Part shown: positions 3,648-10,881 of the stretch, piece after piece | How positions within the stretch are numbered: the stretch's first letter is position 1 | Layout of the letters: each line of letters starts with the position of its first letter | NCBI GenBank assembly: GCA_003497765.1 | Contig: DNNY01000046.1 | Span: 1-10,881, forward strand | Length of the DNA: 10,881 nucleotides | Direction of reading: 5' to 3' | DNA from: Oceanospirillaceae bacterium | GTDB lineage: Bacteria > Pseudomonadota > Gammaproteobacteria > Pseudomonadales > Balneatricaceae | Made by a program: the position numbers and the translations under genes | The notes under the pieces: generated by a model | Seen by the model: only the letters and a program-made list of their open reading frames with translations | What the model was told of the DNA's origin: nothing | The model's database searches: none

Positions 3648-5522
3648 ATGTCTTGGTCCAATATGAACGACAAGCAATATGAAAACGAACGTTTTCAAAT
3701 GCGTTTGTGGTTTGCCTTGGGCATCATCTTATTAATATTTGGTGTATTAATAAGCCGTTTGGTTTATTTGCAGGTTATTGATCACGATCATTATATGACT
3801 GTGGCAGAGGATAATCGCCATCAATTGCAACCCATAGCGCCCACTCGGGGACTGATCCATGATACCAAAGGTCGCTTATTAGCCGGTAATCGTGCCACTC
3901 ATAGTGTGGCTATAGTCCCTGAGCTACTTGATGGTGGTATGCAGGGGGTAGATGCAACGATTGCTCAATTACAAACCATCATTGCCATTGATGAAAATGA
4001 TATCAAGCGCTTTGCACGACGTTTACGTCAAGCACGCAAGCCATTTAGTTCTATTCCATTAAGGTATCGATTAACGGAACAAGAAATTGCCAAAATTACT
4101 GTTAATCAGCACCATTTACAGGGCGTTAGAGTCGAAGCTGAATTGGTGCGCTATTATCCTTTTGATAATGGCTTTGTCCATGCCTTGGGATATGTGGGGC
4201 GAATAAATGATCGTGAAATCGCCTATTTAGATGCGGTGAATTATAGTGACACCCACCATGTAGGAAAATTGGGTGTCGAAAAATTTTATGAAAATGAGCT
4301 CCATGGTAAGGTCGGCTACCAGACCGTGGAAACCAATGCTCGAGGCCGCATATTACGGGTCTTGGACCGTGTTGAACCCGTCCCCGGACAGGATATAACC
4401 CTGCATCTTGATGCGCTTTTGCAACAAAAGGCAGCGCAACTGTTGGAGGGTAAACGGGGGGCTATTGTGGCTATAGACCCAAATACGGGCGGGGTGTTGG
4501 CTATGGTCAGTGCGCCCAGTTATGGGGCTAATCAATTTGTCACCGGCATAAGTAGTAAAGCCTATGGTGAACTTAGAAATTCCGATGAGTTGCCATTATT
4601 TAATCGTGCCTTAAGGGGGCGCTATCCCCCTGCGTCTACTGTGAAACCAGTGATCGCTTTAGCCGGTATAGATACCGGTTTGATTAGGCGTGATTATTCT
4701 ATTCAAGATCCCGGCTACTATCAATTATCTGAAGGTGGTCGTTTGTATCGTGATTGGAAAGAAGGTGGTCATGGCGAAGTTGATTTGCATAAATCAATTG
4801 TCGAGTCTGTGGATACTTATTATTACGATATTGGCCATCAAATGGGTAATGAACCCATGACCCGATATTTGGCTAAATTTGGCCTTGGCCAAATTACTAT
4901 TGCTGATCAGCCAGAGGCCTTGGAAGCGGTTTTACCTACCAAAACTTGGAAGCGAGCTGTGCGCAGCACGTCATGGTTTCCGGGTGATTCTTTGAACTTA
5001 AGTATTGGGCAGGGCTTTCTCTCAGCAACGCCATTACAGTTGGCTACCATGACAATGGTGTTAGCTAATAAGGGTAAATGGCACCAAATACGTATGATTA
5101 AGAGTATTGATGGCACTGAAGTGAGCGCTATTGAGCAGATTAATCGTAGCCAGCCAGTTATTCCTGAAGATGTAAAACTACGCCATTCTAGTGATTGGGA
5201 TCGCTTGCATAAAGCCATGGAAGATGTGATGCATGGGGGCATGGGCACAGCCCGACGCAGTGGTGCCGATAGTGCTTATCGCATGGCGGGCAAGACGGGT
5301 ACTGCTCAGGTAAAAGGTATTAAGCAAGATGAAGAATATGATGCCGAGAAAGTCGCCGAACGCTTACGTGATCATGGTCTATTTGTTGGCTGGGCGCCGG
5401 CAGAGAATCCAGCTATTGTAATAGCCGTGGTGGTGGAAAATGGGGGTGGTGGTAGTTCTGCGGCTGCCCCTCTAGCTAGACAGCTATTTGACACTTATTT
5501 ACTGGATCAAGATGATGGCTGA
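3648..5522 (+). CDS. mrdA: Penicillin-binding protein 2 (elongasome transpeptidase)
   Basis: PBP2 is the class B transpeptidase that cross-links new peptidoglycan during lateral wall growth, working with RodA in the rod complex. At 624 residues it is close to E. coli PBP2 (633). One membrane anchor spans about residues 19-41, followed by the periplasmic pedestal domain starting with the typical PIAPTRGLI. The transpeptidase motifs are all present: SxxK as S330-T-V-K333 in RYPPASTVKP, SxD as S387-V-D389 (the PBP2 version of SxN) and KTGT at 549-552. The start is the ATG 8 bp after rlmH; Met6 is an alternative, and neither has a strong ribosome site. Its 3' end overlaps rodA, consistent with coupled synthesis of the two partners. 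It would be a beta-lactam (mecillinam-type) target by family knowledge. Confidence 0.97.
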   Translation: MSWSNMNDKQYENERFQMRLWFALGIILLIFGVLISRLVYLQVIDHDHYMTVAEDNRHQLQPIAPTRGLIHDTKGRLLAGNRATHSVAIVPELLDGGMQGVDATIAQLQTIIAIDENDIKRFARRLRQARKPFSSIPLRYRLTEQEIAKITVNQHHLQGVRVEAELVRYYPFDNGFVHALGYVGRINDREIAYLDAVNYSDTHHVGKLGVEKFYENELHGKVGYQTVETNARGRILRVLDRVEPVPGQDITLHLDALLQQKAAQLLEGKRGAIVAIDPNTGGVLAMVSAPSYGANQFVTGISSKAYGELRNSDELPLFNRALRGRYPPASTVKPVIALAGIDTGLIRRDYSIQDPGYYQLSEGGRLYRDWKEGGHGEVDLHKSIVESVDTYYYDIGHQMGNEPMTRYLAKFGLGQITIADQPEALEAVLPTKTWKRAVRSTSWFPGDSLNLSIGQGFLSATPLQLATMTMVLANKGKWHQIRMIKSIDGTEVSAIEQINRSQPVIPEDVKLRHSSDWDRLHKAMEDVMHGGMGTARRSGADSAYRMAGKTGTAQVKGIKQDEEYDAEKVAERLRDHGLFVGWAPAENPAIVIAVVVENGGGGSSAAAPLARQLFDTYLLDQDDG

Positions 5523-6663
5523 TTTTCAACGCTCTGTGCCAGATGCCAAAAGTTTTCTGCGCCGTGGCCCTAGTATATTGTCTCGTAGTCGTATTGATCT
5601 GTGGTTGTTGTTGCCAGTTTTATGCATTATGGGCTTGGGTTTAGTGGTACTTTATTCAGGTGCTGGTGCTAGTGAGGAAGCCGTTAATAAGCAACTGTTG
5701 CGTTATGGCGTTGCCCTATTGGGTATGCTGATAATGGCACATATAAACTTGCGAGAAATCGAGCGATTTGTCCCATTATTTTATGTTATTGGGGTGCTAT
5801 TGCTGGTGGCTGTATTGTTATTTGGTGTGGGTGCAAAAGGTGCCCAACGTTGGTTACAAGTATTTGGCATGCCACGTTTTCAACCCTCCGAACTGTTAAA
5901 GTTGGCAGTGCCATTGACGGTGGCTTGGTATTTATGTGGGCGCAACCACCCAACGAGCTTTGGGAATACCTTAGTGGCCTTTATTTTAGTCGGTATCCCA
6001 GTCTTCCTAATTGCAAAACAGCCAGATTTAGGGACGGCTCTGTTGATTGGTGCATCAGGCTTATTTGTTATCTTTTTTGGTGGCTTGCTATGGCGTTATA
6101 TGATGTTAGCCGTATTGGCTGGTGCCGCAGGATTGCCAGTTCTATGGAGTTTTATGCATGCCTATCAAAAACAACGAGTAATGACCTTCTTGGATCCTGA
6201 AAGTGATCCTTTGGGGGCAGGTTGGAATATTATCCAATCGAAAATTGCCATTGGCTCGGGTGGCTTTACTGGCAAAGGTTGGTTGCAAGGTACCCAATCT
6301 CACTTAGACTTTTTGCCGGAAACCCACACCGATTTTATAATTGCTGTATTAGCCGAAGAATTTGGCTTCTTAGGGGTGCTACTGTTACTATTTTTATATT
6401 TGTTTATTTTAATCCGCGGACTAATTATTGCTGGTAAAGCACAGGATCCTTTTAGTCGTATGCTAGCTGCTGGCTTAACCCTGACCTTTTTTGTTTATGT
6501 GGTGGTTAATATTGGTATGGTTAGTGGTTTGTTGCCGGTTGTTGGCGTGCCATTACCCTTAGTGAGTTATGGTGGTACCTCGGCAGTAACTCTGATGTTA
6601 AGTATTGGTATGTTAATGTCCATTCGGGCGCAACGGACATCTAGACGGATGCGCAAGGTCTAG
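5512..6663 (+). CDS. rodA: Peptidoglycan glycosyltransferase RodA
   Basis: RodA is the SEDS-family integral membrane enzyme that polymerises lipid II into glycan strands, with PBP2 as its partner. The 383-residue protein is almost entirely hydrophobic, consistent with about ten membrane helices. Family marks: PSELLK (125-130), KQPDLGTALL (169-178), the large periplasmic loop with GWLQGTQSHLDFLPE (256-270) and the essential Asp in HTD (272-274), and the C-terminal signature PLPLVSYGGTS (347-357). The open frame reaches back to a TTG at 5488, but the paired ATGs at 5512 and 5515 sit five and eight bases after a GGA, so one of them is preferred; this overlaps the mrdA stop by 8-11 bp. Downstream, mltB, rlpA and dacC, the usual followers in pseudomonads, are missing, and a convergent operon begins instead. 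Confidence 0.96.
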   Translation: MMADFQRSVPDAKSFLRRGPSILSRSRIDLWLLLPVLCIMGLGLVVLYSGAGASEEAVNKQLLRYGVALLGMLIMAHINLREIERFVPLFYVIGVLLLVAVLLFGVGAKGAQRWLQVFGMPRFQPSELLKLAVPLTVAWYLCGRNHPTSFGNTLVAFILVGIPVFLIAKQPDLGTALLIGASGLFVIFFGGLLWRYMMLAVLAGAAGLPVLWSFMHAYQKQRVMTFLDPESDPLGAGWNIIQSKIAIGSGGFTGKGWLQGTQSHLDFLPETHTDFIIAVLAEEFGFLGVLLLLFLYLFILIRGLIIAGKAQDPFSRMLAAGLTLTFFVYVVVNIGMVSGLLPVVGVPLPLVSYGGTSAVTLMLSIGMLMSIRAQRTSRRMRKV

Positions 6664-6696
6664 AGGGCCTACGGGAATAAAGGACTTCCCAGAAGT
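6664..6696 (+). other. Convergent rodA/alr intergenic gap
   Basis: These 33 bp separate two facing stop codons. The only structure seen is GGGAA (6673-6677) facing TTCCC (6686-6690), a five-pair stem with an eight-base loop and no T run on either side. That is too weak to call a terminator, so transcripts from the two operons may overlap through the alr and rodA 3' ends. Confidence 0.4.
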
Positions 6697-7776
6697 TTAG
6701 GAATAGATTTTGGGTACCCTTTGACCAATGCGGGTAATCAACTCATAACCAATAGTGCCAATATAGTTTGCCACTTCGTTGGGGCTAAGATCTGGGCCCC
6801 ATAGGCAGACCGGGGTTCCCACCTCCACACCCTTAATATCAGTGACATCAACGGTTAACATATCCATGGAGATACGCCCAATAAGACTGGCGCGCTGGCC
6901 GTTAACTATTAATGGCGTGCCATTACCAGCATGGCGAGGGTAGCCATCGCCGTAGCCCATTGCTACAGTAGCTACTATTGAGTCACGCTGGGCGGTCCAT
7001 ACTTGACCATAGCCCACACCCTCACCAGCACCAATTTCGCGTAATGAAATCACCGCAGAATGCAGAGACATAACAGGTGTTAAACCCTGACTAGTCTTAT
7101 GGTCAAGGTTTAAGGGTGAGTTTCCGTACAGCATATAACCAGCACGATTCCAGGTGGCATGGGCTTGCGGCCAAGCCATAATCGCAGCTGAATTAGCCAA
7201 GCTAGTAGACATCTTGGCATCAGGAAGATGGTCGTAAAAACATTTCATTTGGCGGTTAGTAAAATCATTATCAAGCTCATCAGCGCAGGCAAAATGGCTA
7301 GCGATAACTATATCGGCATCAATATTGTTGCTGTTACGTAATTGAGCTACTAGGTCAGCCAAGCGTTTGGGGGCAACGCCCAAACGATGCATGCCAGTAT
7401 CCATTTTAACCCACACCGATACTGGCTTAGGTAGGGTGGCATTGATAATTGCCTCAGCTTGCCAAGAATCCTCTACCATTAACCAAAGATTTTGTTGGGC
7501 GGCAGTGGTTATCTCATCAGAGGTAAAAGCACCCTCTAACAGCAGAATAGGTTTATTGATGCCAGCATCACGTAATTGTAATGCTTCTTCGATACAGGCT
7601 ACCCCAAAAGCAGGTGCATAAGCATCCAAAGCTCGGGCACAAGCAATGGCCCCATGACCATAAGCATCAGCTTTGATAATAGCCATGGTCTTGGACTTGG
7701 GAGCTAATTCGCAGGCCCACTGATAATTACGGATCAGGGCTGGCAGATCGACTTGTAAATAACTGGGGCGAGCCAT
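6697..7776 (-). CDS. alr: Alanine racemase
   Basis: This PLP enzyme interconverts L- and D-alanine, supplying D-Ala for peptidoglycan or feeding D-Ala into catabolism. The 359 residues are typical. The PLP lysine is K35 in IIKADAYGHG (33-42), at the head of the TIM-barrel domain. KMDTGMHRLG (124-133) and SLANSAAIM (191-199) follow. The second catalytic residue is Y256 in GVGYGQVW, and the C-terminal domain carries GYGDGYPR (274-281), RISMDM (301-306) and the terminal QRVPKIY. The start has AAGG at 7784-7787, seven bases upstream. It is the last gene of the minus-strand operon, 23 bp after dat. The pairing with dat suggests either a catabolic (DadX-like) role or a supply role; whether it is the cell's only racemase cannot be told here. 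A serine/threonine racemase variant is less likely given the close Alr match. Confidence 0.95.
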   Translation of the reverse strand: MARPSYLQVDLPALIRNYQWACELAPKSKTMAIIKADAYGHGAIACARALDAYAPAFGVACIEEALQLRDAGINKPILLLEGAFTSDEITTAAQQNLWLMVEDSWQAEAIINATLPKPVSVWVKMDTGMHRLGVAPKRLADLVAQLRNSNNIDADIVIASHFACADELDNDFTNRQMKCFYDHLPDAKMSTSLANSAAIMAWPQAHATWNRAGYMLYGNSPLNLDHKTSQGLTPVMSLHSAVISLREIGAGEGVGYGQVWTAQRDSIVATVAMGYGDGYPRHAGNGTPLIVNGQRASLIGRISMDMLTVDVTDIKGVEVGTPVCLWGPDLSPNEVANYIGTIGYELITRIGQRVPKIYS

Positions 7777-7799
7777 ACAGAAACCTTAATAACAGTAAC

Positions 7800-8657
7800 T
7801 TAGTAATTATATTTGCCGGCACTATACAGTTTTGCCGCTTGTTCCCATACTGGGCCAGGGCAGCCACCACTTATAGGTTGGCCATCTAACTCAATTACTG
7901 GAGCAATTTCTTTGCTAGAGCTGGAGATCCAAATTTCATCGGCTTGGCGTACTTCATCCATAGTGACTACCCGTTCTTCAACGGGAATAGAGCCGTCCTT
8001 ACGCAGCACATCAAGGGCAATTAATCGGGTAATACCAGCTAGAATTTGGTTATCTAGTGGGGGGGTAATAAGGGTACCATCCTTAACAATATAGGCGTTG
8101 CATGCACCACATTCTGTTAGTTCATTGGCATCGTTATATAGTAATACCTCGCCATTACCTTGGGCATAGCCATTTTGGAAATGCATCACATTGCCGAGTA
8201 GCGATATGGACTTAATCTGGCAACGCCGCCAGCGTTTATCCAGCATGCTCGAGACTTTATAGCCTTTGACCTTGTCGCGTTCAGGAATGGGTGCTGGTGG
8301 TATTTCCGTGGGCATAGCAAACACCGTCGGCTTAACCCCTTGTGGATAGGGGTGGTGACGTTTATTATCAGCACCTCGGGTCACATGCAGGTAGAGGCCT
8401 AATTGTGGAGATGGATTGCGAGCAATCAATTCTTCACAAACTTGGCGCCATTCATTATGGCGCCATTCAAGACCAATTTCTAAAGTAGCCAAACCCTCTA
8501 GCATACGGTCTATATGCGGCCCAAAGCCTACCATTTTGCCAGCATAAGAAGGAATAACCTCATAAATACCATCGCCAAACAAAAAACCACGATCTAAAGG
8601 TGATATCCGGGCTTCATCTAGGGGCATATAAGTGCCATTTAAGTATGCAATTTTCAT
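7800..8657 (-). CDS. dat: D-amino-acid aminotransferase (class IV PLP aminotransferase)
   Basis: This 285-residue fold-type IV aminotransferase is likely to transfer the amino group of D-Ala or other D-amino acids to 2-oxoglutarate, making D-Glu and a keto acid. Motifs in order: LDRGFLFGDGIYEV (21-34), TRGADNKRHHPYP (93-105), the PLP lysine K149 in CQIKSISLLGNV, the cofactor loop LTECGACNAYIV (180-191) and ILAGITR (205-211). Y32, R100 and H102 match the Tyr31, Arg98 and His100 trap that holds the substrate carboxylate in Bacillus D-amino-acid transaminase, which argues against a branched-chain transaminase or aminodeoxychorismate lyase. An earlier ATG seven codons upstream would overlap lysR; the ATG at 8657 fits the family N-terminus and has a good ribosome site. 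The gene lies 1 bp after lysR. The lysR and alr neighbours support D-amino-acid work; substrate preference is inferred. Confidence 0.85.
   Translation of the reverse strand: MKIAYLNGTYMPLDEARISPLDRGFLFGDGIYEVIPSYAGKMVGFGPHIDRMLEGLATLEIGLEWRHNEWRQVCEELIARNPSPQLGLYLHVTRGADNKRHHPYPQGVKPTVFAMPTEIPPAPIPERDKVKGYKVSSMLDKRWRRCQIKSISLLGNVMHFQNGYAQGNGEVLLYNDANELTECGACNAYIVKDGTLITPPLDNQILAGITRLIALDVLRKDGSIPVEERVVTMDEVRQADEIWISSSSKEIAPVIELDGQPISGGCPGPVWEQAAKLYSAGKYNY
8443..8469 (-). repeat. Short in-frame tandem duplication in dat
   Basis: A 12-bp unit (TGGCGCCATTCA on the + strand) occurs at 8443-8454 and again at 8458-8469, a period of 15 bp. In the protein this gives EWRHN followed by EWRQV (residues 64-73). 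The copy is in frame and harmless to the reading frame. It may be a slippage duplication or chance reuse of codons. Confidence 0.5.
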
Positions 8658-8658
8658 A

Positions 8659-9576
8659 TTAATACTTTCCATCTTCAATAGAGGTAAAGTCTCCGGGGTT
8701 AAGAGGAGATTGGATCAACTGGCTGGCAGATTCGGCCAGCAGTTGTGGTAGTATGCGATCCTCATCTTGGCGCCAGCCAGTGCAGAAATGCAGTAATGGC
8801 GCCTCAGGATAGACATGAAGTTTTTCTAAGCGACCAGCATCGATGGCGCCTTGTACCAAAGGGTCTGTCAGTAAAGCTACGCCAGCACCTTGCTCTGCCA
8901 TGGCTATTAAGCCGGATACTGAATTACTGGTATGTAATTTGGGCATTTCTGGTTGATCTTTGAAGAGCTGTTGTAAATGTCTACCAGGTCCCGTATTTAT
9001 GGGAAAGCTGAGAATAGTTAGGTGTGCTAAGTCTTGAATAGAAGACACTTTATGGGTGGCTGCAAATTCTGGTGTCGCTACCCATGATTGTGGGTAAGCA
9101 CACAGGGGCTTAGTTAAAATAGCACCTTGGTCACTGTAGACCATAATTGCTAAATCTAAATGGTGTTCTTGAAGCTGGGTATAAAGGGCTTGGCTGAGAT
9201 CAATAGTCAGTTCAAACTGAATCATAGGATGCTGTTCGCGCCAAACCTTTAACAGGTCTTTAAGCCACAAATGAGCCACGGTGTCGGCAATACCGATACG
9301 GAAGATGCCTTCTTCCGGTGCTTTGTCATTAAGCTGGGTTTTCATTTCATTGCTGATGGCTACTAAACGCTCAGCGAAAGGCAATAACTGCATGCCCCTG
9401 GTGGTTAGTTGAGTGCCACTTTGGTCACGTTTAAATAACCTGACGCCTAATTCGTCTTCTAAGGTGGCGATACGAGCTGAAATGGCGGGTTGGGAGGTAT
9501 GCAACTGCGTAGCAGCGGCATGAAAACTACCCAGTTTTGCCACTTTAATAAAACTATTTAGGTTGCGGATACGCAT
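8659..9576 (-). CDS. LysR-type transcriptional regulator
   Basis: A 305-residue LysR-family regulator. The N-terminal winged helix-turn-helix is clear: residues 1-60 begin MRIRNLNSFIKVAKLGSFHAA, with the helix-turn-helix in ATQLHTSQPAISARI and the family-typical LEDELGVRLFKR. A linker helix follows, then a periplasmic-binding-like effector domain from about residue 90 (EGIFRIGIADTV) to 290, as in other family members. The start ATG is 1 bp after the stop of the DUF4392 gene, and its own stop is 1 bp before dat. LysR genes more often face their targets divergently, so this position inside the operon is notable. I infer that it controls this operon, perhaps responding to a D-amino acid, D-Glu or 5-oxoproline; the ligand cannot be read from the sequence. 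Confidence 0.93.
   Translation of the reverse strand: MRIRNLNSFIKVAKLGSFHAAATQLHTSQPAISARIATLEDELGVRLFKRDQSGTQLTTRGMQLLPFAERLVAISNEMKTQLNDKAPEEGIFRIGIADTVAHLWLKDLLKVWREQHPMIQFELTIDLSQALYTQLQEHHLDLAIMVYSDQGAILTKPLCAYPQSWVATPEFAATHKVSSIQDLAHLTILSFPINTGPGRHLQQLFKDQPEMPKLHTSNSVSGLIAMAEQGAGVALLTDPLVQGAIDAGRLEKLHVYPEAPLLHFCTGWRQDEDRILPQLLAESASQLIQSPLNPGDFTSIEDGKY
8665..8670 (-). promoter_or_regulatory. dat ribosome binding site inside the lysR 3' end
   Basis: On the minus strand GGAAAG lies seven bases before the ATG at 8657, within the last codons of lysR. It decides between that ATG and an upstream in-frame ATG, and points to translation coupled with lysR. Confidence 0.65.
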
Positions 9577-9577
9577 G

Positions 9578-10441
9578 CTAGCACTCCGATTCAGTAGCTT
9601 CTGAGAAGCGCATAGTGTGGCGAATTTCGGCTATCACTGCCAACCCTTCTGAAGGGGTTAAACCATCTTCAGTAAGCTCATTAATACGGGTTACACCATC
9701 TACACTGCCGAGTTTTGATAGGTAATTGAGAATAGTCAGTGGATCAATTCGCCCTAACAGGTCCTCATTATGCCATAGGCTTAAGAAAGCGATAAGTCCA
9801 TAAGCGCCCCAGTTAGATACATCTGCTACTAATAACTCATCACAACTGGTGACCGCAGGGACAATATTTAAGGCCTGCAGGGCAGCGCTTACTTTGCCCA
9901 TGCCAATTTCATTACCACCATCACCAATACCAATTGTTGGACACTGAGCTTGGGTGATAAAACTATCAAAACAGGCTGTACGCGCACTAATATCTTCCCC
10001 ACGCATATTGTAATAACCACCATCAGCGGCTTGCCCTGGTCGCTCAATAGAAATGATGGCATCAGGGTTATAGTGTGCTAGCGCTTGCTTGGCTTCTGCT
10101 TCACGTTGATTATGCTCTCCCACTTTGATTTCATGGGTGCGGTATTGGTCTGCAAGGGCACCAACAATAGGTTGGCCACAGACGATTACCGGTTTAGCCC
10201 CAAGGTAAGCAAGGGTTTCATAGAGGGCAATGGCACCCACTGGGCCATCGGTTTCAAAGGTATCCACCACGGGAAAACCAGTGCCAATAAGGATATGCCC
10301 AGTTTTATTCCGTAGCAGTTGCGCGGCACGCAAACAATAACCTGGTGTTAAGGCCGATTGTACTGCTTGCATGCCCCTTAAATTGCGGGCCACAAGAATA
10401 TTTTCTATGCTGTGGCTGAGGCTTAGCAAATCTGTAGACAT
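9578..10441 (-). CDS. DUF4392 D-glutamate cyclase-type protein
   Basis: This 287-residue protein matches the DUF4392 family, whose mammalian member, the C-terminal part of DGLUCY, interconverts D-glutamate and 5-oxo-D-proline. Characteristic segments: TGFPVVDTFETDGPVGA (54-70), SIERPGQAADGGYYNMRGEDIS (131-152) and IGIGDGGNEIGMG (170-182), the last perhaps forming a ligand pocket. No membrane helix or signal peptide is evident. The frame stays open upstream to an earlier start, but the ATG at 10441 is chosen because it sits 4 bp after the pxpC stop and begins the family-like region; a weak GTGAG lies seven bases before it. The N-terminal DUF1445 half found in DGLUCY is absent, as in other bacterial stand-alone forms. 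Neighbouring pxpC and dat, which would consume and make its metabolites, support the D-Glu/5-oxoproline role. Activity is inferred from family and context. Confidence 0.85.
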   Translation of the reverse strand: MSTDLLSLSHSIENILVARNLRGMQAVQSALTPGYCLRAAQLLRNKTGHILIGTGFPVVDTFETDGPVGAIALYETLAYLGAKPVIVCGQPIVGALADQYRTHEIKVGEHNQREAEAKQALAHYNPDAIISIERPGQAADGGYYNMRGEDISARTACFDSFITQAQCPTIGIGDGGNEIGMGKVSAALQALNIVPAVTSCDELLVADVSNWGAYGLIAFLSLWHNEDLLGRIDPLTILNYLSKLGSVDGVTRINELTEDGLTPSEGLAVIAEIRHTMRFSEATESEC

Positions 10442-10445
10442 AGGC

Positions 10446-10881
10446 TTACTCACTAATAGCCTCGAGGGGCGTGTGTTGGAAACGATAGGCGGCCAAAGCA
10501 TAAATATTTTGCGCTTGATGCAGATCCACTGCCTTAAATGTAACCGTATCCCCTGGCCGAAGCTGTGCTAGACGCGCCGCATCTTGACTAATAACAGAAC
10601 CAATCTTCGGATAACCGCCAATGGTCTGTCGATCATTAAGTAATACGATAGGTTGGCCATCAGCGGGAATTTGAATAGCCCCATAACAGATACCCTCAGA
10701 CAGCATACTCGTTGTGTCACAGGATACATCTGGGCCCGATAACCGCATACCCATGCGGTCGGCACGATCCGTCAGGGTATAGGTGCTGGAAAAAAATAGA
10801 GCTTGTTTAGCAAGGCTAAATAAATCATGTTGATAGCCAAGCACGACACGCAATTCAGTATGGTCGGTATAGGTTGGCCGC
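10446..10881 (-). CDS. pxpC: 5-oxoprolinase subunit C, C-terminal part (cut by window edge)
   Basis: The last 144 residues of a biotin-dependent carboxyltransferase-like protein (YbgK/KipA family) are present; the reading frame runs off the right edge, so about half of a normal 310-residue PxpC lies outside. Family marks seen: LRVVLGYQHDLF, ADRMGMRLSGP, then GAIQIPADGQPIVLL and the near-invariant DRQTIGGYPKIG, followed by the LRPGDTVTF segment. PxpC works with PxpA and PxpB to hydrolyse 5-oxoproline to glutamate with ATP; pxpB and pxpA are likely further upstream but not visible. A TTG inside the frame at 10853 is not a real start, since homology continues upstream of it. The tie to the D-Glu cyclase gene, 4 bp downstream, is metabolically sensible. 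Older names for this family (urea amidolyase-like, allophanate hydrolase subunit 2) refer to the same fold and are less likely functions here. Confidence 0.9.
   Translation of the reverse strand, partial: RPTYTDHTELRVVLGYQHDLFSLAKQALFFSSTYTLTDRADRMGMRLSGPDVSCDTTSMLSEGICYGAIQIPADGQPIVLLNDRQTIGGYPKIGSVISQDAARLAQLRPGDTVTFKAVDLHQAQNIYALAAYRFQHTPLEAISE

Follow-up and report, generated by a model that had tools for sequence, protein, structure and literature searches.

A candidate D-glutamate supply-and-disposal operon in gammaproteobacteria in which glutamate racemase was not found

D-Glutamate (D-Glu) is an essential building block of the cell wall, and the glutamate racemase MurI is studied as a drug target. 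In Staphylococcus aureus, auxotrophy for D-Glu is reported to require the loss of both murI and dat (PMC5458566). For the recombinant mouse D-glutamate cyclase, formation of 5-oxo-D-proline has been described, with no racemase or oxidase activity found (PMC5339696), and the reported substrate of the 5-oxoprolinase PxpABC is 5-oxo-L-proline (PMC13274462). Here we describe a locus from an Oceanospirillaceae bacterium that brings dat together with cyclase- and 5-oxoprolinase-type genes. It lies at the right end of a stretch of 10,881 nucleotides (assembly GCA_003497765.1, contig DNNY01000046.1), which in its full length is referred to as the window, and it continues on a second contig of the same genome. 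The operon comprises eight genes in the order DUF1445-pxpA-pxpB-pxpC-DUF4392-lysR-dat-alr, and it probably constitutes a module for the supply and disposal of D-Glu that takes the place of glutamate racemase.

In the proposed scheme, Alr would convert L-alanine to D-alanine (D-Ala), and Dat would transfer the amino group of D-Ala to 2-oxoglutarate, yielding D-Glu for the ligase MurD. The products of DUF4392 and DUF1445 would represent a split counterpart of the mammalian D-glutamate cyclase (DGLUCY) and interconvert D-Glu and 5-oxo-D-proline, and PxpABC would open 5-oxoproline with ATP, whereby excess D-Glu or its pyroglutamate would be removed or recovered. The LysR protein probably sets the expression of the operon. 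Sequence comparison shows the operon, its conservation, intact active-site residues and the association of dat-alr with missing MurI. The supply of D-Glu by Alr and Dat is supported by genome comparison, and we infer that Dat runs towards D-Glu; homology, co-occurrence and gene fusions suggest the disposal half and its stereochemistry.

Organization of the operon and conservation of active sites

In the assembly, which totals 1.58 Mb in 214 contigs and is 67% complete, the window corresponds to contig C32. It carries five co-directional genes on the minus strand, and gene positions and Pfam matches confirmed what the preliminary description had given for their coordinates and families as well as for the intergenic gaps of 4, 1, 1 and 23 bp between pxpC, DUF4392, lysR, dat and alr. 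That description had also pointed to the right of the window for pxpB and pxpA. Both were found on the overlapping contig C89, together with DUF1445, which makes the gene set larger than previously noted. The genes are as follows.

C89, about 4125-4913: DUF1445 gene; PF07286
C89, 4925-5659: pxpA
C89, about 5684-6385: pxpB
C89 (locus L003), 6382-7038: 5' part of pxpC
Window, 10446..10881, minus strand: 3' part of pxpC (5-oxoprolinase subunit C); Pfam CT_A_B, 4.5e-40
Window, 9578..10441, minus strand: DUF4392 (GLUCM-like_C) gene, 287 amino acids (aa); PF14336, 1.8e-71
Window, 8659..9576, minus strand: lysR, LysR-family regulator, 305 aa; HTH_1 and LysR_substrate
Window, 7800..8657, minus strand: dat, fold-IV D-amino-acid transaminase-like, 285 aa; Aminotran_4
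Window, 6697..7776, minus strand: alr, alanine racemase, 359 aa; Ala_racemase, TIGR00492

The end of C89 overlaps the right end of the window, as its reverse complement, by 151 bases with one mismatch, and the overlap lies within pxpC. DUF1445 is a separate gene, which was matched on C89 in a profile search of the window's genome with PF07286 (3.5e-68). In the sister genome G009 (L034) all eight genes are present on a single contig between mltB and rodA, including an intact pxpC of 313 aa (L034:10521-11462), and the eight proteins are 94-98% identical to those of the window's genome. The contiguity in G009 supports the join of C32 and C89 without establishing it.

The residues expected in the active sites are intact. 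Alr reached 356.5 bits with TIGR00492 (cut-off 168), and K35 and Y275, which we take to be the catalytic lysine and tyrosine, are kept in 76 of 76 and 75 of 76 matched loci, respectively. Dat remained below the curated cut-offs of TIGR01121 (227.8 versus 277.45 bits) and PRK06680 (235.5 versus 320 bits), and its closest solved relatives are D-amino-acid aminotransferases. In the canonical D-amino-acid transaminase the carboxylate trap is reported to consist of Tyr31 and Arg98-x-His100 (numbering of PMC10003956). Of 134 matched loci, 133 keep the trap residues Tyr32 and Arg100-x-His102 of Dat, and all 134 keep Lys149, the lysine that binds pyridoxal phosphate (PLP). By motif and relatives, Dat appears to be D-amino-acid-transaminase-like, and it was not filed as an equivalog.

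Among the 5-oxoprolinase subunits, scored with the sister copies at L034, PxpA exceeded the cut-off of NF003816 (335.9 versus 213) and PxpB that of TIGR00370 (163 versus 145.55), whereas PxpC failed the equivalog NF045499 (217.6 versus 500 bits) and passed the broader TIGR00724 (256.6 versus 230.2). For the LysR protein, none of the 25 NCBIfam families shown, out of 54, was matched above its cut-off.

The DUF4392 protein matches the TON_0340 structures 5gkx, 4fc5 and 4dwz at about 1e-30, and it is a homologue of both TON_0340 and the C-terminal domain of mammalian D-glutamate cyclase; solved structural relatives also exist for DUF1445, as they do for Dat. Six metal-binding acids are named for TON_0340 (PMC5132392), and they align to E63, D65, E133, D174, E178 and D259 of the DUF4392 protein. 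These six are invariant across 14 aligned sequences and kept in 150 of 150 matched loci, except for one X at D259 (151 loci were given for this residue check, 16 of these entered twice). Compared with DGLUCY, the protein has the DUF4392 domain, with the metal-site acids, and it does not carry DUF1445 in the same chain.

Loss of glutamate racemase and the dat-alr pair

The 15 genomes of the window's genus (G000-G014) were compared. No match to TIGR00067 (MurI) over the cut-off was found in any of the 15. Eight of them contain a weak partial match (18.7-33.5 bits), and the remaining seven none at E<=1e-3. The weakly matching protein of the Asp/Glu-racemase family was considered as a hidden glutamate racemase and rejected, since it cannot be the general source of D-Glu when seven genomes have no match. 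Each of the 15 has one alr match, and in 14 this is the alr of the operon; in the remaining genome, G004, no operon, DUF4392, DUF1445 or pxpA was found. As no MurI match reached the cut-off and the alr of the operon is the only one found in these 14 genomes, biosynthesis of D-Glu is the most plausible role for Alr and Dat.

The position at which murI would be expected was also inspected. In three of four other family members checked (G038, G026 and G027), murI follows der. In the genus, birA directly follows der in 12 of the 15 genomes, one extra gene lies between the two in G004 and G014, and G002 gave no full der. The order der-birA also occurs in G022, which belongs to another genus. According to Pfam, the genes after der encode BirA and then a type III pantothenate kinase in G013, and BirA in G022.

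For an order-wide comparison, we used 293 genomes, which apart from that of the window have a completeness of at least 90%. MurI was taken as present at E<=1e-20, with G025 counted as present and the status of 42 genomes assigned by elimination; this gave 219 MurI-bearing genomes compared to 216 by the curated cut-off. DUF4392 scored over its cut-off in 45 of the 293. MurI was not found in 32 of the 45 DUF4392-positive but in only 41 of the 248 DUF4392-negative genomes (Fisher odds ratio 12.4, p 7e-13, kinship ignored). The dat gene is followed by alr in the operon in all 32 DUF4392-positive genomes without MurI, compared to six of the 13 that have MurI (p 4e-5). Dat itself (E<=1e-35) occurs in 63 of 73 MurI-less versus 41 of 220 MurI-bearing genomes (odds ratio 27.5). 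It is present in 32 of 32 DUF4392-positive and 31 of 41 DUF4392-negative MurI-less genomes, which means that only Dat-Alr is tied to the supply of D-Glu.

Narrower groups were compared as well. Of the six genomes seen from genus g68, three have DUF4392 and no MurI and three are of the opposite state, and the murI regions of two of the latter (G249, G230) contain no masked bases. In family f41, all six genomes of g101 have DUF4392 and no MurI, the two of g90 have MurI and no DUF4392, and three of g56 have both; G136 (g56) and G215 (g97) have neither but do carry dat-alr. In a named set of 50 genomes with DUF4392, eight of which are also in the order sample, MurI stayed below the cut-off in 21 of the 23 that have an alr adjoining dat versus 18 of the 27 that do not (p 0.046), a link that is weak at face value. 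These 18 MurI-negatives were left uninterpreted, as the genomes without an adjoining alr include lineages with MurI at contig ends or masked stretches. A raw count of 27 of 34 DUF4392 genomes without MurI, among the 76 genomes searched initially, was discarded as too strong owing to masking and contig-end artefacts. Where relatives have retained MurI and no alr adjoins dat, the main role of these genes may be the catabolism of D-Glu and 5-oxoproline. A catabolic ancestor that turned biosynthetic is not claimed, as the DUF4392 and Dat gene tree (56 rows, quick method), in which the alr state changes four times and the MurI state seven times, does not separate gain from loss.

Dat was further found in a second arrangement. 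Among 20 chosen loci, 14 came from MurI-less genomes without DUF4392. In six of these 14 a different Dat (37-46% identical) is encoded directly after dacA, in the order rodA-mltB-rlpA-dacA-dat in G193, G060 and G073 and as dacA-dat in G062, G128 and G129. The other eight have dat-alr (G056, G136, G215) or, in five cases, dat alone among the genes searched. Two kinds of Dat are hence encoded within or next to the elongation cluster. This location agrees with a role in D-Glu supply, but it is not confined to MurI-less genomes. The dacA-dat loci are L251, L252, L253, L254, L255, L258, L262, L263 and L264; they come from other families, and most of them have mltB-rlpA-dacA in view.

A number of observations weigh against a module that replaces MurI. 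Six genomes carry the operon with alr together with MurI, and dacA-dat also occurs in three MurI-bearing genomes of family f43 (G138, G294, G346). DUF4392 is not needed for MurI loss, given the 31 DUF4392-negative MurI-less genomes that have Dat, and in the other 10 of these 41 genomes no Dat reached E<=1e-35; they either use another D-Glu source or have a hidden MurI. In the MurI-less genome G361 (L267/L240, C1 about 3387585-3388438), dat is split into two overlapping frames, which is either a sequence error or a real exception. Kinship is ignored in the tests given above, and the gene tree yields no more than four independent contrasts; on average 3.4 of these pair alr with the loss of MurI and none shows the reverse, a number too small for significance. 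Other points concern the absences themselves. In G028 murI is not beside der, and in G025 MurI runs into a masked stretch beside der (L148, G025:C1:2846000-2860000), so that its absence there is an artefact. In nine relatives (G044, G017, G032, G035, G046, G021, G024, G040 and G039) only 204-647 bases of contig remain beyond der, and the absence of MurI therefore means nothing; neither these nine nor G025 were used as MurI-negative. Masking was checked only at der in 30 genomes plus six regions, a check that does not extend to the majority of the 32 operon-bearing genomes without MurI or to the 21 from the named set, so some absences may be false. With a completeness of 67% for the assembly that contains the window, a gene may also be concealed, as in any draft. 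On the biochemical side, we know of no enzyme activity for these bacterial operon proteins, a PxpABC that takes 5-oxo-D-proline as well would run in a futile cycle with the cyclase, and TON_0340, a stand-alone DUF4392 protein, is reported as a weak Mn-dependent phosphatase (PMC5132392). As an aside, G025 illustrates that genes beside masked regions can give false absences in genome searches.

Conservation, gene fusions and alternative explanations

The preliminary description had proposed to search genomes for co-occurrence of the genes, and such co-occurrence was found, which speaks against a chance arrangement. In 29 of 34 loci fetched around DUF4392 matches in the genus, family and order, DUF1445, pxpA, pxpB, pxpC and DUF4392 occur in this order, and two of the five incomplete loci are cut by contig ends. 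A dat gene is present in 30 of the 34, and in 17 an alr with more than 45% identity adjoins it. A second set consisted of the best 80 of 555 loci encoding a relative in a scan of genome contigs, eight of which overlap with the 34. These named loci come from Amphritea, Marinobacterium, Neptuniibacter, Rheinheimera, Colwellia, Halieaceae, SAR92, HTCC2207 and others, and they include the N-terminal part of pxpC in 73 cases, pxpA and pxpB in 72 each, dat in 70 (two of them weak, 34-35% identical and on the opposite strand), DUF1445 in 69, lysR in 33 and alr in 26. The gene order thus recurs in many gammaproteobacteria. The genomic surroundings vary between groups, which suggests that selection maintains the order or that the genes are transferred together. 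When the neighbours were grouped, not all of them being identified, no additional gene was found next to the operon in more than one group, and hence no transporter is tied to it.

Reduced forms occur as well. DUF1445-DUF4392-dat stands without pxp genes at L221 and at L141 (the same locus as L242), DUF1445-DUF4392 alone at L136, and pxpA-DUF4392-dat-alr with pxpB and pxpC undetected at L066 (G049) and, with DUF1445 in addition, at L211 (G141). Among the 76 genomes, presence is nested, with pxpA in 61, DUF1445 in 43 and DUF4392 in 34, the smaller sets lying inside the larger ones. The 14 control genomes, Bacillus subtilis included, gave no DUF4392 match. L046 (G028) and L052 (G040) have an insert between DUF4392 and lysR-dat that carries an opposite-strand gene, whose product may be a PLP-dependent enzyme, and a small gene of a cluster also present in L051.

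In the window's genome, the operon sits inverted between rodA and mltB of the cell-elongation cluster, the names of the neighbours being those we take their sequences to indicate. The neighbours on the window that mark the insertion site are as follows.

5512..6663, plus strand: presumed rodA (mrdB), convergent neighbour marking the insertion site
3648..5522, plus strand: presumed mrdA (penicillin-binding protein 2), part of the elongation cluster

To the left of the operon the genes presumably are nadD-rsfS-rlmH-mrdA-rodA, an order that is kept in relatives, and past the operon on C89 presumably mltB, rlpA, dacA and ybeD. Ten of 13 operon loci from other genomes of the genus show both the rodA and the mltB side. 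L054 and L062 have the rodA flank, and the contig ends on the operon's other side; in G014 (L038, C27) an mltB-like gene (54% identical) lies on one side and no rodA was found within 2.2 kb beyond alr. G014 also has a second, distant DUF4392 gene (L050, C142; 35% identical), which lies outside any such operon.

Gene fusions give further hints on the cyclase side. In the MurI-less genome G345, pxpC and DUF4392 form one gene of 607 aa (L239:6393-8216), the protein of which is labelled Porticoccaceae. The DUF4392 part of this protein served as query in a fusion search with candidates of 0.55-1.75 times 607 aa, so that fused forms were favoured. According to the Pfam column for the best 120 of 696 proteins, DUF4392 is fused to PxpC in 24, to PxpB in three, to DUF1445 in 12 and to a Mur-ligase middle domain in 33, two of the latter also carrying DUF1445. 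MurD is the ligase that adds D-Glu, and its N-terminal and middle domains bind the UDP-precursor and ATP. In the MurD-like fusions, which come from other phyla and for which SAR324 and Planctomycetes are the names given, DUF4392 stands in front and the MurD C-terminal domain is lacking; in P0065, P0090, P0055 and P0033 the match to TIGR01087 (murD) begins at the first residue of the model and extends to residue 259-296 of 441 with 168-187 bits, below the cut-off of 211.95. The MurD hallmarks, namely the GK loop and the GGN-G and SS-QLE blocks, are retained in 17 members that were aligned. The fusions tie DUF4392 to 5-oxoproline chemistry and to the use of D-Glu, and the direction of the reaction is not thereby shown. 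Single fusions of DUF4392 to NlpC/P60, glucosamine-6-phosphate isomerase-like and methyltransferase domains were seen in P0035, P0061 and P0027. It is a speculative and rather doubtful extension that DUF4392, where Alr-Dat has replaced MurI, is a regulated D-Glu valve, which with DUF1445 and PxpABC would limit D-Glu by cycling it through 5-oxoproline, and that the MurD-like part of the fusions senses wall precursors and switches the valve. A wall-precursor feedback loop of this kind was not found in literature searches.

The enzymes had been presented in the preliminary description as a linked chain. This stands in so far as a conserved unit joins D-Ala, D-Glu and 5-oxoproline, but there is a stereochemical gap between the cyclase and PxpABC. 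If PxpABC accepts the D form, it would undo the cyclase reaction at the cost of ATP, and the resulting cycle could be controlled; with a PxpABC restricted to the L form, cyclase and PxpABC would serve the separate hands of one damage product. One alternative explanation is a salvage or metabolite repair of both hands of 5-oxoproline, in which PxpABC opens the L form to L-Glu and DUF1445/DUF4392 the D form to D-Glu, with Dat and Alr turning D-Glu onward into D-Ala and L-alanine. This would close the stereochemical gap, and it would agree with the DUF4392-PxpC and -PxpB fusions and with the finding that DUF1445 occurs only in pxpA-bearing genomes (43 of 43 among the 76). However, hydrolysis of 5-oxoproline without ATP is uphill, DUF1445-DUF4392 loci without pxp genes exist (L136, L221 and the single locus L141/L242), and the link of dat-alr to MurI loss would be left unexplained. 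We consider this explanation rather unlikely.

Slightly less probable, and likewise unlikely, is a salvage of D-amino acids, in which amino groups are collected as D-Glu and fed via 5-oxoproline to L-Glu. The reactions are reversible in principle, and in several MurI-bearing family members such as G028, G037 and G041 the operon has dat without an adjoining alr, in agreement with catabolism. In the window's genus, however, the only alr found is in the operon (14 of 15 genomes) and MurI was not found (15 of 15), so that the products of the operon would be needed for every division; the salvage direction favoured in the preliminary description is not supported for the window's genome. In addition, no transporter-type gene recurs with the operon, and the reported cyclase product and PxpABC substrate differ in handedness (PMC5339696, PMC13274462). 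The alternative offered by that description, an overflow control of D-Glu that protects wall synthesis, came nearer but missed Dat as the probable source of D-Glu. It is very unlikely that alr-dat, as an essential supply for the wall, and a 5-oxoprolinase operon unrelated to it were joined in one transcript by chance, since DUF4392 followed by dat recurs across many groups and surroundings, even without pxpABC (L221, L242), although dat-alr is also found on its own (G136, G215) or next to a pxpABC that lacks DUF4392 (G056) and DUF1445 and pxpA occur without DUF4392 in nine of the 76 genomes.

Comparison with described systems

If the D-Glu supply-and-disposal module is real, MurI is dispensed with in wall synthesis by several groups of marine gammaproteobacteria, and the widespread DUF4392 has its bacterial role in the control of D-Glu. 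With this proposal, simple genetics combined with measurements of metabolites can directly test what DUF1445 and DUF4392 do. In the open-licence literature, as far as its texts were accessible, no description of this operon or of a MurI replacement in these bacteria was found, and the descriptions of DUF4392 found there were only those of a mammalian heart enzyme and an archaeal "phosphatase".

In S. aureus, dat and murI are presumably not in one operon with alr. The likeness to this system lies in the D-amino-acid transaminase, which is reported to make D-Glu from D-Ala for peptidoglycan (PMC5458566); the difference is that dat and murI coexist there, whereas MurI was not found here and dat, alr and the cyclase/5-oxoprolinase genes form one unit.

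The B. subtilis control genome has a DUF1445 protein, as the operon does, and by name and gene place we take it to be YcsI. The genes pxpA, pxpB and pxpC are common to the present operon, to that of B. subtilis and to the pxpTABC and pxpAGBC operons of Corynebacterium glutamicum and Clostridioides difficile, but these described operons are reported to include a 5-oxoproline transporter or a homologue of it, whereas no transporter recurs here (PMC13274462).

The archaeal stand-alone protein TON_0340 shares the family and the six metal acids with the DUF4392 protein, and it differs in that it is reported as a phosphatase of unknown substrate, with no Dat or Pxp context mentioned in the accessible part of the report (PMC5132392). 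Split bacterial homologues of human GLUCM are reported for gut microbes, human D-glutamate cyclase being tabulated, with the values 0 and 6, among the proteins matched by neighbouring bacterial genes, and no link to pxpABC, dat, alr or MurI is drawn in the accessible part of that report (PMC12547972). The mammalian DGLUCY has a DUF1445 and a DUF4392 domain, and both are present in the operon. DGLUCY, however, is described as one fused mitochondrial protein with DUF1445 first (PMC5339696), whereas a bacterial fusion of the two (P0029) has DUF4392 first, and in the operon the two domains are encoded by separate genes that flank pxpABC.

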